DNA of 64,000 nt from Asanoa ishikariensis (lineage in GTDB: Bacteria > Actinomycetota > Actinomycetes > Mycobacteriales > Micromonosporaceae). Below the pieces are notes generated by a model. That model did no database searches. It was not told the origin of the DNA and was given only the letters and a program-made list of their open reading frames with translations. The position numbers and the translations under genes are program-made. The stretch spans positions 1 through 64,000 of the forward strand of contig NZ_FNQB01000002.1 in the NCBI RefSeq assembly GCF_900107455.1. The letters run 5' to 3'. Within the stretch, counting starts at the first letter, position 1, and each line of letters begins with the position of its first letter. Positions 15,556-19,957 of the stretch are shown here, in pieces.

Positions 15556-16089
15556 TCAGATAGTGATGGACGCGCCGTGGGACGTGTTTGCCGGATCGTT
15601 CGTGGCGTCGAGTTGGACGTTCCACTTGGTCGGGAACGTCATGCCCTGGCACTTCACGGTGGCGTCGCCGTGGAGAGTGATCGCGTCGTCGATCGTCACG
15701 ACTACCACCGAGTTCGGCGGAAGCACGATGCCGGGGTTGCCAAGGACCCGCTCGATCAGCCACGTGGCGCAGTCCGGCTTGTCCGCCGCGAGGGGGCCTT
15801 CGATGTCGGTGTAAGGGATGTTGACCGCAGTGATGCTGCTGATCCGGGCTTGGACGTTGTTGTTGGTTGGCGACGCGATCGTGAGTTTCACGTCGGCGGC
15901 GTTGCCTGGCAGTAGCGGCGCGGTGGTCGACCATTCGGCGGTGACCGTGATTTCGCCGAACTTCGCAGCTGCGCCCTGCGCGGTGGCCTGCGGTGCGTAG
16001 TAGAAGGCCGCATATGCGATTCCGCTGGCGGCGATGACGCCCGCGACGGCGAGGGCGGCGGCCAGGATGCGCTTCGAACGCTTCTGCAA
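15556..16089 (-). CDS. secreted protein, member of the local Cys-pair family (divergent member)
   Basis: A 177-residue exported protein. It begins with a basic N-terminus (QKRSKR), a hydrophobic segment and a signal-peptidase-like site after GIAYA, then AFYYAPQATAQG. The mature part shows the traits shared with the three genes at 16817, 17334 and 17821: LLPG, an SPTNNN turn, an isolated Cys (PDCATW), an acidic DDAITL turn, and a final C-x-G-x-x-F (KCQGMTF). The pattern is a small beta-sandwich probably closed by one disulfide. The start is TTG at 16089, chosen because AGGAGA sits 6 nt upstream; longer in-frame extensions lack a ribosome binding site. No known function; the post-signal segment vaguely resembles SipW-dependent TasA/camelysin proteins. 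Confidence 0.78.
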   Translation of the reverse strand: MQKRSKRILAAALAVAGVIAASGIAYAAFYYAPQATAQGAAAKFGEITVTAEWSTTAPLLPGNAADVKLTIASPTNNNVQARISSITAVNIPYTDIEGPLAADKPDCATWLIERVLGNPGIVLPPNSVVVVTIDDAITLHGDATVKCQGMTFPTKWNVQLDATNDPANTSHGASITI

Positions 16090-16816
16090 GGGAGGTCTCC
16101 TAGGGCGTGCCGGCGTTGTCTCGGGCCGGCGCATGTTCATGGCGGGTGTCGCGGACAAACCGGATTTTCCGGCCGGTTGTGGCGACATAGGAGACTCTGC
16201 CCGAACGGGACGAGAACGCGGCATAGAGAACACGGTCCGTGGTTGTTCGCCGACAAGCGGTCCTGCCGGTCGGACCGGATGACCCCGAATGAGTGACCCC
16301 CCTTGAACGCGATAAATGCTCGACCTTGGTTGAGTATTTAAGCAACTAATAAAGCGCACTGATCGTTTTGCTGAATGGCGACAAAGAATCGCTTCGGCGC
16401 CGCGTCGCATTGCGGACCGAAATGGCCCGCGCAGCCGAGCTCGCACGCTCTGGCGCGAGGCGGCGCGACCCCGGCCGTGGGAAGAACTCGCAGGTCAGAG
16501 CGTTTCGCCACGCCGGTCGTTGCTAACGGTGCGATACCTGCTAGGGAAGTGTTTTCCCAGCTCAGAGCGCTATCCGCGACCAGGGAACCACCACGAAACG
16601 GGCTTAACGGGCATATTGGGTCACTCTAAGGGGTTAGGCCTTCAGGGTTTAGTTCTGCTATTTGCGCACAGCAAAGGTCGGACGGTTGCTTGCTTGAACG
16701 ATAAGCGTCTTCTGGGCAAAGTTGTCATCGGCGCCGGACCGCCTCCACCGGGCCGGCGCCGACATAGAGATCGTTCTTTTCGCCCAATCTCAGCACAGCC
16801 CTGAAAGGACTTCGCC
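16090..16816. promoter_or_regulatory. 727-bp divergent intergenic region with AT-rich core and hairpin
   Basis: No gene is supported here. About 16311-16380 is unusually AT-rich (29 G/C in 70 by my count). GGGAA...TTCCC forms a small palindrome near 16544-16558. A 10-bp perfect inverted repeat (16728-16737 with 16753-16762) lies 55 nt before the next ATG and could be a leader hairpin. No riboswitch family was recognised. The region presumably drives both divergent members of the secreted-protein family. Confidence 0.45.
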
Positions 16817-17260
16817 ATGCGCAAGGTCACCAAGCGGACAGTCACCGTCCTCGTCGCCGCAGCCATCACGCTCGGGACGTCGAGTGCCGCTTGGGCGTGG
16901 TGGGAGTTCTCGGGCCGGGCCACCGTCGAGGCCTCGGCCGCGTCGATCAAGCCGATCAAGGTCGAGACGCGGGACGTCAACGGCCTCTACCCGGGTGCCG
17001 AGAAGGACCTGCGGGTCGAGATCTACAACCCGAACCCGTTCCCGGTCGTTATCACGGAAGCCGAGGCAACCGTCCGCACCAGGTCGGAGCACTGCGACGA
17101 CGCGATCAGCGTCGAGCTGCCCAGGCGGCCGGTCCGGGTCGAGCCGGGCCACAAGTCCTACACGTTGGAAGACGCCGTTCGGATGGACCGCGACGTGGAG
17201 CGATGCCAGGGCGCGGACTTCAAGGTGGTCATTTTCTACTCGGGCCAGAACGCGGCCTGA
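16817..17260 (+). CDS. secreted Cys-pair family protein
   Basis: A 147-residue exported protein. The signal segment RKVTKRTVTVLVAAAITLGTS ends near SAAWA and is followed by WWEFSGRATVEASAASI. The mature domain contains LYPG, the NPNPFPV strand, a first Cys (EHCDD), LEDAVRMD and the closing RCQGADFKV. These elements recur in order in the neighbours at 17334 and 17821 and, more loosely, at 15556. AAAGGA lies 7 nt before the ATG. It is the first gene of a five-gene rightward unit. No enzymatic motif exists, so a structural or binding role outside the cell is inferred. Confidence 0.8.
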   Translation: MRKVTKRTVTVLVAAAITLGTSSAAWAWWEFSGRATVEASAASIKPIKVETRDVNGLYPGAEKDLRVEIYNPNPFPVVITEAEATVRTRSEHCDDAISVELPRRPVRVEPGHKSYTLEDAVRMDRDVERCQGADFKVVIFYSGQNAA

Positions 17261-17333
17261 TCGCCGTCGGCGGGTGGCGGAGCCGGTTCGGCCGCGTCAC
17301 CCGCCGAGTCCAGAAATGAACGTAGGAGCGTCC

Positions 17334-17813
17334 ATGCGCAACATGTCCCAGCGCACCGCCATCATCACGCTGGTCGCCGTCATCGTGACGGGCATCGCCA
17401 GCGTGGCGTGGGCGGCGTGGTCGGTTACTGGCCAGGGGACCGCGACGGTGACAGCGGCCGAGGTGACCGCGCTGCAAGCGACGGCCCGGCCGACGGGAAG
17501 CCTGTTCCCGGGCGGCACCGCCGACATCGAGATCCGCGTGACCAACCCGAACGAGTTCGCCGTCGAGGTGCAGTCGTTCGCGCAGTCCCCGGACATCGTG
17601 GTCGACGACGCGCACGCCGCCGGGTGCCCGGCCGGCAACGTGCGGCTCAAGGCGACCAAGAAGCCGATTGGCCAGCGGGTCGAGGCCGACGGTGGCCGCG
17701 AGACGTTCGTGGTCGAGGACGCGGTCGAGATGGTCTACAACGCACCCGAGTCGTGCATGGGCGCTTCCTTCGAGATCACGCTCGCGCTGGCCGGCGTCGG
17801 CCTCCCGGACTGA
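17334..17813 (+). CDS. secreted Cys-pair family protein
   Basis: A 159-residue exported protein with signal segment QRTAIITLVAVIVTGIA and a cleavage-like site around SVAWA, followed by AWSVTGQGTATVTA, which resembles the start of TasA/camelysin-type mature proteins. The mature domain shows LFPGGTADIEI, a TNPNEFAVEV strand, a first Cys (AAGCPAG), VEDAVEM and the closing SCMGASFEI. AGGAG at 17324-17328 supports the ATG at 17334; an in-frame ATG at 17316 has no such site. It is 73 nt downstream of its paralogue and 7 nt upstream of the next. Confidence 0.8.
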   Translation: MRNMSQRTAIITLVAVIVTGIASVAWAAWSVTGQGTATVTAAEVTALQATARPTGSLFPGGTADIEIRVTNPNEFAVEVQSFAQSPDIVVDDAHAAGCPAGNVRLKATKKPIGQRVEADGGRETFVVEDAVEMVYNAPESCMGASFEITLALAGVGLPD

Positions 17814-17820
17814 GGTCTTC

Positions 17821-18267
17821 ATGAAGCTGACGACGGCCCTCGCCGCAGGCGCGCTGGCGCTCGCCTTGGCGGGCGCCGTTGCCACGTCAGGTCCCGCCGG
17901 CGCCGAGCTCAAGCTGACCGGCGACGAGGCGCACACGTTCGTGATCGACGGGACGTCGGTGTCCGGCCTCCACCCGGGCTCCGAGCGGTCGACCGCGCTG
18001 CGGGTCCGCAACCCGTACCCGTTCGACCTGCGGTTGACCCGCCTGCGCGGCGACGTCGTCGACAGCTCCAGCCCCGACTGCCCGGCTCACCCGGGCAACC
18101 TCACCGCCGGCCCGCACCAGGGCCGGCTGCCGCTAACGGTGCGCGCCCGTCAGTCGCGCGATGCCGGTTCGATTCCGATCCGGATGCCCGCCTCGGTGAC
18201 CAACGAATGCTCGGGGGTCACCTTCACCATCCGGATCACCGGTGTAGCCACGAAGGTGAACAAGTGA
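17821..18267 (+). CDS. secreted Cys-pair family protein
   Basis: A 148-residue protein with a classical signal peptide (KLTTALAAGALALALAGAV, cleavage near AGA) but without the Trp-rich post-signal segment of its siblings. The mature domain keeps LHPG, the RNPYPFDLRL strand, a first Cys (SPDCPAH), IRMPASV and the closing ECSGVTFTI. GAGG overlapping the previous stop acts as ribosome binding site, so translation is probably coupled. It overlaps the next gene by 4 nt (GTGA). Function is unknown; the shared pattern suggests a one-disulfide beta-sandwich. Confidence 0.8.
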   Translation: MKLTTALAAGALALALAGAVATSGPAGAELKLTGDEAHTFVIDGTSVSGLHPGSERSTALRVRNPYPFDLRLTRLRGDVVDSSSPDCPAHPGNLTAGPHQGRLPLTVRARQSRDAGSIPIRMPASVTNECSGVTFTIRITGVATKVNK

Positions 18268-19487
18268 AAAGACTGATCGCCACGTCCCCCGCCGTACTCG
18301 GTGGCATTGCCGCTGTCACCCTGGTCGCCGGCGCCGGGGCGGCGATCGCCGCGTGGCGTGTCCAGAGCGACGAGGTCGTGCTGACCGCGGAGACCGCGAC
18401 GCTCTCGCCGGGCAACAAGCCGGCGGTCAGCGCGGCAGGCAACCTGGTGACCGTGTCGTGGACGCCCAACACGTTCGGCGACCGGAAGGTCGACAGCTAC
18501 CGGATCCAGCGCTACGACCTGGCCGGCTCCGTGCAGCAGCCGCGCGGCACCTGCGAGGAGAACGTCGCCAAGGAGTCCTGTGGGGACTCGGGCGTGCCGA
18601 CGGGCTCGTGGCGCTACACGGTCGTGCCGGTCAAGGGCGGCTGGACCGGGCCGGAGAGCGCGAAGAGCGACGCGGTGATCGTCGCCGCTGACGGCAAGGC
18701 CGTGGTGGTGCCCGACCCGGCGGTCGCGAAGCCGGCCGGCCCCGCCGCGGGTCCCGCCGTCGTCGCGATCGGCGACCCCGCCCAACCGGCGGCCACCCCC
18801 GCGCCCGGCAGCCCACCGGCCTGGACCGTGCAGCCAGGTGCCGACGGGGTGCTCGGCACGGACGACACGCTGACCTACGCGGGCGGAGCGCCGGTCGCAC
18901 CCAACGACGTCATCATCGGCTGGGACGGCGGCGCACGCCCCGTCACCGTGGTGGCCGAGGCCGGCGCGCAGCCGGTGCTGACGGTCGACGACGGCGCGAC
19001 CCGGATCTTCGGCCCGCTCGCGGTGCCACCCGCGACGGTGCCCGCCAACCTCACCTTCGACGCGACGCTGGCCGAGGTGAAGGGCCGGATCGTGCTGACA
19101 CTCGGCGCGGTGCGGGTGGCGCCGGCACCGGACGAGGCGGCCACCGCACCCGGCGAGCCGACCGCCGGCACCGACCCGACGACCGGCACGGACACCCCGG
19201 AAACCCCCGGCGCGGCCACGCCGAGCACGGAAACCACCGAGCCGGCCGAGCCGGGCGGCACGCCGAGCACGACCGAGTCGGCCGGCGGCGACCCGAGCGG
19301 CGCCGACCAGCCAGGGACCGGGGGAGACGGCGGCGACAGTGGCAATGGCGGCGACGCCAGCACCGCGGGCACCGAGGGTGAGCCGGACGCTCCGGCCACC
19401 GACACCGCCGCGACCGGAACGCCGGCCGCGGAGGTGACCCCGTCGACGGCCAGCAGCGACCCGGCCGTCGTGCTCGTCGCCGCATGA
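18264..19487 (+). CDS. secreted fibronectin-type-III-like protein with Thr/Pro/Gly-rich stalk
   Basis: A 407-residue exported protein starting with GTG. The signal segment TSPAVLGGIAAVTLVAGAG ends near AIAAW. Residues about 48-133 read as a fibronectin type III-like domain (NLVTVSWTPNTFGDRKVDSYRIQRYDL, then SWRYTVVPVKGGWTGPESAKS), with two cysteines forming a likely loop (GTCEEN and KESCGDS). A second module lies around 195-280. The last 120 residues are low-complexity Thr/Pro/Glu/Gly repeats, like a wall-spanning stalk. No LPXTG motif or C-terminal membrane span is seen. It overlaps both neighbours in frame-coupled fashion and may present or scaffold the small Cys-pair proteins. Confidence 0.75.
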   Translation: MKRLIATSPAVLGGIAAVTLVAGAGAAIAAWRVQSDEVVLTAETATLSPGNKPAVSAAGNLVTVSWTPNTFGDRKVDSYRIQRYDLAGSVQQPRGTCEENVAKESCGDSGVPTGSWRYTVVPVKGGWTGPESAKSDAVIVAADGKAVVVPDPAVAKPAGPAAGPAVVAIGDPAQPAATPAPGSPPAWTVQPGADGVLGTDDTLTYAGGAPVAPNDVIIGWDGGARPVTVVAEAGAQPVLTVDDGATRIFGPLAVPPATVPANLTFDATLAEVKGRIVLTLGAVRVAPAPDEAATAPGEPTAGTDPTTGTDTPETPGAATPSTETTEPAEPGGTPSTTESAGGDPSGADQPGTGGDGGDSGNGGDASTAGTEGEPDAPATDTAATGTPAAEVTPSTASSDPAVVLVAA

Positions 19488-19957
19488 CCGATCCGGCCGG
19501 CGAAGAACCGACGACCCGCGAGGTCACCGCCCGTAACCTCGCGACCGTCCTGAACGGTGTAATCGGTGTGCAGCTCACGCCGAAGAAGGTCCTCGCGCTG
19601 ATCCTCGGGCTCGGCCTGCCCGTCGTGGTCGCGGTCGGCTGGGTGCTCGGTCAGCGCCAGGCCACCGGCACCCCGTCCGACGGTTCGGGTGCGATGGGCA
19701 CCGCGCCGCACGAGCAGGTGCCCTCGCCGGCCGCCCAGTACGACGTCTACGAGGACGCGCCGACGGTGGTGCCGATGGCCAGCACGTCGGCCGTGCCGTC
19801 GCCGCGACCCAAGGACGCCGGACCGAAGAACAGCCAGGCGCCGCAGCCGACGGTCCAGCCGACCGTTGTGCCCGAGGACCAGACGCCGAGCCCGGAACCG
19901 AGCCCTGCGGAGACGACTCCGAGCCCGGAGGAGCCCAGCGCGGAGCCCGAAGGATAA
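19484..19957 (+). CDS. single-span membrane protein with Pro-rich exterior
   Basis: A 157-residue protein with an N-terminal cytoplasmic segment of about 35 residues (EEPTTREVTARNLATVLNGV), one transmembrane helix (VLALILGLGLPVVVAVGWVLG) and an exterior tail of about 95 residues rich in Pro, Ser, Thr and Glu ending in PSPEPSPAETTPSPEEPS. It overlaps the previous gene by 4 nt (ATGA). No enzymatic motif is visible. The topology suggests an anchor that spans the cell wall. Together with the FN3 protein it closes the secreted-protein operon. Confidence 0.72.
   Translation: MTDPAGEEPTTREVTARNLATVLNGVIGVQLTPKKVLALILGLGLPVVVAVGWVLGQRQATGTPSDGSGAMGTAPHEQVPSPAAQYDVYEDAPTVVPMASTSAVPSPRPKDAGPKNSQAPQPTVQPTVVPEDQTPSPEPSPAETTPSPEEPSAEPEG

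Follow-up and report, generated by a model that had tools for sequence, protein, structure and literature searches.

The window analysed here, a 64,000-nucleotide stretch of DNA from the soil bacterium Asanoa (Micromonosporaceae), contains a cluster of genes for small exported proteins, a larger exported protein and a membrane protein. The original prediction had placed six genes between positions 15556 and 19957, and all six were found there, with two further features.

15556..16089, minus strand: A0, small exported subunit, 177 aa, TTG start with AGGAG upstream
16090..16816: divergent intergenic region, with blocks kept in 6/6 aligned Asanoa sequences
16728-16762: strong stem-loop in the leader of 16817 (fold z -2.17; 6/200 shuffles equally good)
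16817..17260, plus strand: A, small exported subunit, Trp-tagged (AWAWWEFSG), 147 aa
17334..17813, plus strand: A, small exported subunit, Trp-tagged (AWAAWSVTG), 159 aa
17821..18267, plus strand: A-prime, small subunit without Trp, 148 aa
18264..19487, plus strand: F1, exported, with Trp-tagged N-terminus, FN3 domain and low-complexity tail, GTG start
19484..19957, plus strand: Pro-rich, single-span membrane protein

The overlapping starts that had been described are present as 4-nt overlaps at 18264/18267 (start of F1 and stop of A-prime) and 19484/19487, and it is correct that the cluster holds no sortase or signal peptidase gene. The proposed order of four small-protein genes followed by F1 applies to 16817, 17334 and 17821, but not to 15556-16089, which is on the minus strand, 727 bp (16090-16816) from gene 16817, and is therefore transcribed divergently from the remaining cluster genes, so that its inclusion in the same operon is not supported. 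Nor is a place of the membrane gene 19484 in a more general system supported: among the 31 stretches clustered, its homologues were found in Asanoa only. No Rfam match was found in 16000-16900, the promoter scan returned 0 promoters, and the terminator scan gave 1 terminator-like site against 2.1 expected.

The family of small subunits and its relation to TasA

The four small proteins share L-x-PG (LLPG, LYPG, LFPG, LHPG) and a closing C-x-G-x-x-F (CQGMTF, CQGADF, CMGASF, CSGVTF), and each has two cysteines, both of which are invariant across the 43-row family alignment. The acidic turn attributed to all four is present as D-A-V/I in three and absent from 17821. The Trp-rich stretch after the signal occurs in two of the four as AWAWW or AWAAW, and protein 15556 has AYAAFYY at this position. 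That the four form one paralogous family was borne out when whole groups were left out and the first 27 residues removed, as they were still recovered at E <=2e-10; when the A0 type was the group left out, the A0 protein of the window was recovered at 3.3e-15. An HMM trained on 39 relatives trimmed of residues 1-27, none of them a window protein, recovered the four at 2.9e-39, 3.2e-32, 5.4e-22 and 3.9e-31; because these relatives included close Asanoa orthologues, the group leave-outs are the stricter test. In the host genome, the A1 profile gave four matches, all within the cluster (9 of 148 first-look candidates scored), while a BLAST-type search (47/47 candidates scored) gave three of the four cluster proteins and three weak places (E 0.006, 2.3 and 6.2), around which no family members were found.

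The small proteins of the window are not recognised by Pfam or NCBIfam. TIGR04089, a SipW-type exported family, was matched by one of the 43 A rows (5.7e-5), and the rodlin model NF041022 touched gene 15556 only, below its cut-off (13.3 of 75 bits). Within Asanoa, 17334 is the best conserved small subunit. A0 keeps its signal peptide and has a hypervariable mature domain: the mean identity among six Asanoa copies is 81% over the first 27 residues versus 23% over the rest. Relatives of A-prime end in LPFTG (L115) or LAWTG (L166), tails seen in no other of 48 stretches; no window protein has a C-terminal sorting motif with membrane span and basic tail, and the host genome has 8 sortase matches over the cut-off. 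One A relative (L055) is fused to LamG-like domains, and an A-prime relative (L120) carries a weak extra Ig-like stretch.

The model predicted for 17334 is an Ig-like sandwich from about residue 45, with a confident block from residue 51 (pLDDT 82-95) and a low-confidence N-terminal arm (residues 12-41 below 50). Foldseek and VIA-align returned only generic Ig-like domains, with the solved TasA not among the matches listed, which speaks neither for nor against a TasA fold. The predicted fold does not contradict the proposed relation to TasA/camelysin, but the PDB search did not single TasA out. Searching PDB sequences with the A profile gave nothing convincing, the best match being a lysosomal membrane glycoprotein (E 0.012). 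It is very improbable that these proteins are a LEA_2/WHy-like protective family. The LEA_2/WHy domain is Ig-like and contains NPN, and 12 of the 43 A members touch the LEA_2 model (best E 0.0083); however, the best window score against PF03168 is 14.1 of 25.4 bits, the sole match in 198 Actinomycetota genomes is again under the cut-off (21.2 bits) and overlaps an A protein beside F1 (G172), and the A family is exported and tied to F1.

The suggested link to TasA/camelysin is supported by profile-profile comparison. In the biofilm matrix of Bacillus subtilis, TasA is the chief protein; that it assembles through donor strands was demonstrated only in 2022-2023. In hhalign, A1 matched the TasA-family alignment A7 at 96.5% over 153 columns, end to end. 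Without signal and arm the match was 74.3% (P 2.7e-5) with a score of 33.6, whereas 100 column shuffles reached 13.3 at most and reversed profiles 17.9-18.1; with the A-prime rows removed as well, the match was 39.6%. The A7 alignment itself finds solved TasA (8aur, 4.5e-17; 5of1, 4.8e-17) and archaeal AbpX (6e-5). Judged by these profiles, the A family is remotely homologous to TasA. Like TasA/camelysin (PF12389; fibre 8aur, monomer 5of1), A proteins are small and exported, with an aromatic residue right behind the signal, L/M-x-PG followed by an N turn, a C-terminal QG before the closing strand, and several paralogues per locus. Unlike TasA/camelysin, they have two invariant cysteines (A1) and the NPN motif, live in a host without SipW, and are missed by PF12389 and TIGR04088. 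PF12389 gave no match at E <=1 in the window proteins, one among the 43 A members (best E 0.19) and none in the host genome at E <=0.001, and the host genome has no TIGR04088 or TIGR02228 match over the cut-off.

F1, the shared tryptophan start and the conserved module

F1 has no Pfam or NCBIfam match over the cut-off, and no NCBIfam family, hence no named TapA-type model, appears at E <=1. Its description as an FN3 protein is clear from the predicted fold, which superposes on titin Fn3-56 (8oq9_C; TM(target) 0.76, 2.3 A, 96 columns, E 2.4e-5), but not from Pfam fn3, which stays under its cut-off (13.1 vs 25 bits). The tail is low-complexity, acidic and rich in Thr, Pro and Gly. The residue after the signal is Trp in 16 of 17 F1 rows and Tyr in the other; W or F stands there in 29 of 43 A rows, and the nine A-prime rows have no Trp in this column. 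With a crude signal call, a Trp start was seen in 12/25 F1 proteins versus 12/136 other proteins (Fisher P 1.2e-5). Past this tag, mature A and mature F1 have no profile similarity, and the Trp start is common to two unrelated folds. F1 matches camelysins at 77.8%, which falls to 0.4-0.5% without signal and arm, and so this match was not taken as evidence of homologous domains. Hydrophobic residues alternate suggestively in the Trp arm, in phase at 26 of 29 positions, yet among the 122 places along the protein the arm comes only 45th, and no weight was placed on this pattern.

That A, F1 and camelysins align to one another over signal plus arm could also mean that a dedicated signal peptidase encoded outside the cluster, a SipW equivalent, recognises the Trp stretch for processing or sorting, the proteins being otherwise matrix proteins of the camelysin type. 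SipW-type peptidases do adjoin relatives in L064 and L168. In L064 the place of the small subunits beside F1 is taken by such a peptidase (100.4 bits against a cut-off of 51.85) together with a camelysin (22.9 against 22.5 bits), a swap that also speaks for the TasA-like reading favoured below. However, the best SipW-type candidate in the host reaches only 25.8 bits against the TIGR02228 cut-off of 51.85, the cleavage sites are ordinary A-x-A, and no peptidase was noticed beside A-F1 modules when the gene lists were inspected by eye, which makes this explanation improbable.

The idea of a conserved assembly-type cluster gains support from the adjacency of A and F1 across the phylum. Across 396 evenly sampled Actinomycetota, 17 genomes besides the host are A-positive, and 13 of these have F1 directly downstream of A; the 14 top-scoring places for F1, that of the host included, all adjoin A. 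The homologues are thus not mostly scattered singly, yet A stands without F1 in 13 of 48 stretches; the two occur together in 33, including five with a single detected A (L050, L113, L116, L124, L126). The small subunit or subunits and F1 therefore form a real conserved module, common to scattered relatives within the Actinomycetota. Such a module could still consist of non-polymerising secreted Ig-like surface proteins, either separate adhesins or sporangium/spore-coat proteins, that are co-transcribed as products needed together and in which the Trp is part of an unusual signal peptide. The generic Ig-like fold of A, the LamG-like fusion and extra Ig-like stretch in relatives, the stretches with A without F1 and the dissimilarity of the mature proteins outside the tag would agree with this. 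We nevertheless consider it rather unlikely, because a Trp start that is present on A and F1 and missing in A-prime is better explained by subunit contacts, and the homology of A to the TasA family also speaks against it.

A possible mechanism of fibre assembly

The reading that we favour, and hold to be nearly but not quite an even chance, is that the cluster encodes a surface fibre system of the TasA/camelysin type, reduced to a minimum and independent of SipW, which resembles a simplified form of the biofilm-fibre system of Bacillus. For cleavage, disulfide, polymerisation, roles and polarity of the A/F1 system we infer the following course. A subunits would be exported via Sec and cleaved at A-x-A, probably by ordinary signal peptidase I, and mature A would be a disulfide-bearing Ig-like sandwich behind a flexible, Trp-led N-terminal arm, which would serve as the donor strand for the next subunit and so build a fibre. 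F1 shares the A-x-A-x-W start of A, but its fold is another one, FN3, and is complete by itself; it would therefore donate but not accept, and may start (or cap) the fibre in the way that TapA starts that of TasA, with its low-complexity tail facing the wall or the exterior. A-prime, having the A core without the Trp start, would accept but not donate, and might thus end or anchor the chain, with a sortase attaching it to the wall in some relatives. The divergent A0 may be an optional, fast-changing surface variant.

F1 had been proposed as a wall-spanning scaffold bearing the subunits. This was not supported, and the long stalk as a scaffold was dropped because tail length and composition differ widely among the F1 relatives compared. 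A TapA-like initiator is the better match for what F1 shows, namely the Trp-tagged start, the complete FN3 fold and the tail of low complexity. TapA is reported to have an N-terminal donor, a complete Ig-class fold with a cysteine pair and a large unstructured region, and to be produced together with the fibre subunits (PMC10151520), all of which resembles F1. Unlike TapA, F1 has an FN3 fold and no NCBIfam match, with no sign of descent from TapA. Compared by description only, the crenarchaeal thread protein Saci_0406 resembles A in its predicted signal peptidase I site and in an aromatic YYY motif of the donor tail that is conserved immediately behind the cleavage site, and its neighbour Saci_0405 has been proposed as a cap (PMC9715654). 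Saci_0406 differs from A in being archaeal.

A further comparison concerns Actinoplanes missouriensis, an actinomycete of the same family as the host. Its SspA, CwpA and CwpB are cell-surface proteins anchored to the wall by a class E sortase (SrtE); SspA is described as putatively disordered, CwpA and CwpB are larger and compared with chaplins, and the available parts of this description contained no link to A or F1 (PMC13251363). The A/F1 family was not described in the open-licence PMC literature at the level of titles and abstract beginnings.

We offer as a tentative possibility that the Actinomycetota possess an undescribed class of donor-strand fibres, with two genes as a minimum, neither SipW nor chaperone-usher, and a hypervariable companion subunit, expressed from a divergent promoter, as a source of diversity. 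If true, donor-strand fibres would reach another large Gram-positive group, the actinomycetes, with an FN3 protein in place of the initiator, and the family left blank by Pfam and NCBIfam would have a name. The two genes would encode a Trp-tagged subunit with a disulfide and an initiator of the FN3 type, a system that would be easy to reconstitute.

Gene arrangement and the family of small proteins

Six genes had been noted here as one cluster, and on reading the window all six were found in place; the five plus-strand genes stood as a cluster, while the remaining one was instead on the minus strand and divergent:
15556-16089, minus strand, gene of the small exported protein A0 (TTG start, AGGAG upstream)
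The interval 16090-16816 separates it from the five divergently oriented plus-strand genes, which form a run with 7 nt between 17334-17813 and the gene at 17821 and with 4-nt overlaps into the genes at 18264 (F1, an exported FN3 protein) and 19484 (a single-span, Pro-rich membrane protein). The 16817 leader contains a GC-rich, near-perfect stem at 16728-16762 (fold z -2.17), whose block is conserved in all six Asanoa and had no Rfam match. Within 16090-16330, before the minus-strand gene, CCGAATAGGTGAC and ATAGAGAACACGGT...CGCCGACAAG are nearly identical in six Asanoa.

The proposal that the four small proteins form one paralogous family held, since group leave-out HMM tests without the first 27 residues still find members. 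By BLASTP, 16817 and 17334 share 30% identity (3e-25), and an iterated HMM search of genes predicted from 31 stretches of related DNA gathered 58 members, the four window proteins included. When proteins were excluded from training and their first 27 residues removed, in a small database of about 950 proteins, the minus-strand type (five, excluded together) was recovered at 9e-12 to 3e-17 and the Trp-less type (nine, excluded together) at 2e-10 to 1e-17. For the window's own four proteins, whose Asanoa orthologues were kept in training, the values were 2.9e-39, 3.2e-32, 5.4e-22 and 3.9e-31. Both cysteines are invariant in the 43-row alignment A1, where L57, P59, G60 and N71 are conserved in at least 90% of rows; A4, a more divergent alignment of 23 rows, keeps just P59 and the second cysteine invariant. 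Searched against the own genome, A1 matched four places, all in the window cluster (best 9 of 148 candidates scored).

Three kinds can be distinguished. The A kind (16817, 17334) carries Trp or Phe two residues past the usual A-x-A site in 29 of 43 rows; A-prime (the 17821 type; nine rows, grouped by eye) shares the A core and lacks the aromatic at that column. In the six Asanoa copies of A0, the first 27 residues average 81% identity and the remainder only 23% (16-37), compared with 87% for the hydrolase beside A0 and 76% overall for 17334. A conserved leader and signal peptide ahead of a divergent mature domain would fit a surface protein that is diversifying or being swapped. In A0 and its syntenic copies (L045, L046, L047, L048, L049), the variable mature domain is flanked by neighbours at 85-87%. 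All six Asanoa stretches contain 17334 and F1. Three of them (L045, L046, L047) lack A-prime, L045 and L047 retaining remnants upstream of F1, and one (L048) lacks 16817.

Unusual forms were also seen. L055 (9562-11256) fuses an A domain to domains of the LamG-like (concanavalin A-like) type, which score 87.2 bits for Laminin_G_3, and genus g29 has an additional A copy, as called, with a long, perhaps cytoplasmic, N-terminal extension ahead of the hydrophobic segment:
L054, 10546-11229, extended A copy
L056, 11352-11963, extended A copy
L058, 7667-8302, extended A copy
L061, 10540-11190, extended A copy
L062, 9035-9703, extended A copy

The A-F1 module in Actinomycetota

The A-F1 module is real, conserved but patchy in Actinomycetota, and nameless in Pfam and NCBIfam. 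Neither library named any of the four window small proteins; among the 43 A members the best Pfam E-value was 0.0083 (LEA_2) and the best NCBIfam one 5.7e-5 (TIGR04089, one member), both from tables that give no cut-offs. Across 396 evenly sampled Actinomycetota genomes, the own among them (E <= 1e-4; best 9 candidates per genome scored), the A profile matched at least 18 genomes and the F1 profile at least 28. As to whether homologues are scattered without the FN3 gene, among the 17 other genomes with an A match, at least 13 have F1 just downstream on the same strand, one (G372) with a further small ORF between; in G205 F1 is located elsewhere, and G211, G305 and G343 have no F1 among the matches listed. 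Among 33 F1 places listed, each of the best 14, which take in the own genome and extend to G172 at 1.6e-9, adjoins A; in the 19 weaker places A is not adjacent. A BLAST-type search (E <= 1e-3) of 121 genomes from the own family, Micromonosporaceae, placed A in 25, F1 in 14 and both in 12: the module is patchy. In 48 stretches, a non-random sample that is mostly A-selected, with some from the same genome and several cut at contig ends, and that excludes the duplicates L159-L162 and L164 as well as L070-L073 (no family member found), A was present in 46, F1 in 35 and both in 33, with A lacking F1 in 13 and F1 lacking A in 2. Carriers of both include Virgisporangium, Modestobacter, Klenkia, Solihabitans and a Propionibacteriales MAG. 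The membrane gene 19484, which had been counted as part of the system, clusters only with Asanoa genes in 31 stretches, which does not support a place for it in the general system. Near the module in L056, L057 and L061, also of g29, lie small proteins that have a single span and a GRxHQWY motif.

Relation to the TasA family

The suggested link to TasA/camelysin found support in profile-profile (hhalign) matches, but a fold search with the A model did not single out TasA. A 21-row alignment, A7, was built from Actinomycetota proteins recovered with PF12389; as it finds solved TasA (8aur, 4.5e-17; 5of1, 4.8e-17) and archaeal AbpX (6e-5), it is a TasA-family profile. A1 and A7 align collinearly over 153 columns (96.5%), with the C-terminal C-x-G-x-x-F of A opposite the camelysin N-x-x-QG motif. 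Signal and arm contribute to such matches, since F1 itself reaches 77.8% over 62 columns against camelysins. With both profiles begun past signal and arm, the match was 74.3% (P 2.7e-5, score 33.6), compared with a best score of 13.3 in 100 column shuffles, 17.9-18.1 for reversed profiles and 13.7 for the F1 FN3 core; an earlier comparison that used more camelysins reached 59.7%, with a score of 34.5. Over the same region, the nine A-prime rows alone gave 62.1%, and A1 without them 39.6% (P 3.1e-4, score 28.1). These comparisons support, and do not prove, remote homology of the A and TasA families; by profile, the A family is a TasA-superfamily relative that falls outside the library definition of a camelysin.

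A possible donor-strand fibre

According to published accounts, the N-terminal strand of each TasA subunit goes into the next subunit (PMC9674648), and TapA, whose Ig fold is complete and which has a large unstructured region, acts as a donor through its N-terminus (PMC10151520). A crenarchaeal thread uses donor strands that start from a predicted signal peptidase I site, an aromatic motif standing where the new N-terminus begins (PMC9715654). The A model (23-row alignment) is an Ig-like sandwich with strands from residue 48 on and a block from 51 with pLDDT of 82-95; pLDDT is below 50 for residues 12-41. F1 begins with a signal and the Trp tag, followed by an FN3 domain and then a low-complexity tail. 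The model built from its 8-row alignment (pTM 0.44) matches titin Fn3-56 with a TM by target of 0.76 and 2.3 A across 96 columns. The A-x-A-x-W start of A recurs in 16 of 17 rows of F1, whose domain is unrelated. In profile-profile comparison of A and F1, signal plus start match at 93.0% over 56 columns, the mature parts at 0.2% and the cores at 0.1%. By a crude signal call, Trp lies at +1 to +5 in 12 of 25 F1, 37 of 65 A and 12 of 136 other proteins, the last including at least two module-like and two 19484-type proteins. Short end motifs such as DKDF, DADF, DVDF or DVEF close F1 in L113, L114, L051 and L064; the window F1 has no such C-terminal motif.

Because A and the unrelated F1 domain share this start, donor and acceptor roles may be proposed: A would be donor and acceptor, F1 donor only, as initiator, and A-prime acceptor only, as end or anchor. 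Every fibre step from cleavage onward is what we infer. That the module works like TasA/TapA, as a SipW-free fibre, is our main reading, held at slightly under even chances. A more tentative proposal, which we consider possible but less likely than not, is that Actinomycetota have a two-gene donor-strand fibre, of a Trp-tagged disulfide subunit and an FN3 initiator, without SipW or chaperone-usher and with a hypervariable companion subunit. The 39.6% obtained without A-prime, together with the dissimilarity of the A and F1 arms, puts less weight on the main reading and on this more tentative proposal, and slightly more on the first two rival explanations, namely secreted Ig-like surface proteins that do not form polymers and a Trp stretch that serves a dedicated signal peptidase encoded outside the cluster.

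Nothing in the own genome exceeded either SipW-related cut-off. One place in it away from the cluster, contig C7 50600-50656 (L078), narrowly misses the TIGR04088 cut-off for a SipW signal, with 18.5 bits against 19. In relatives, A-prime ends in LPFTG plus a membrane span (L115) or LAWTG plus a span (L166), where NCBIfam sorting models gave matches below cut-off only. In L064, F1 (522 aa) has in place of A an adjoining SipW-type peptidase (TIGR02228, 100.4 bits, cut-off 51.85) and, nearby, a camelysin (PF12389, 22.9, cut-off 22.5). Neighbours of one another in Xylanimonas oleitrophica (L168) are a SipW-type peptidase (82.1 bits), a protein that scores 118.3 bits for TIGR04089 (cut-off 60), a short YW protein unmatched by the F1 profile, and an AWAAW protein matched by the A1 HMM at 1e-5.
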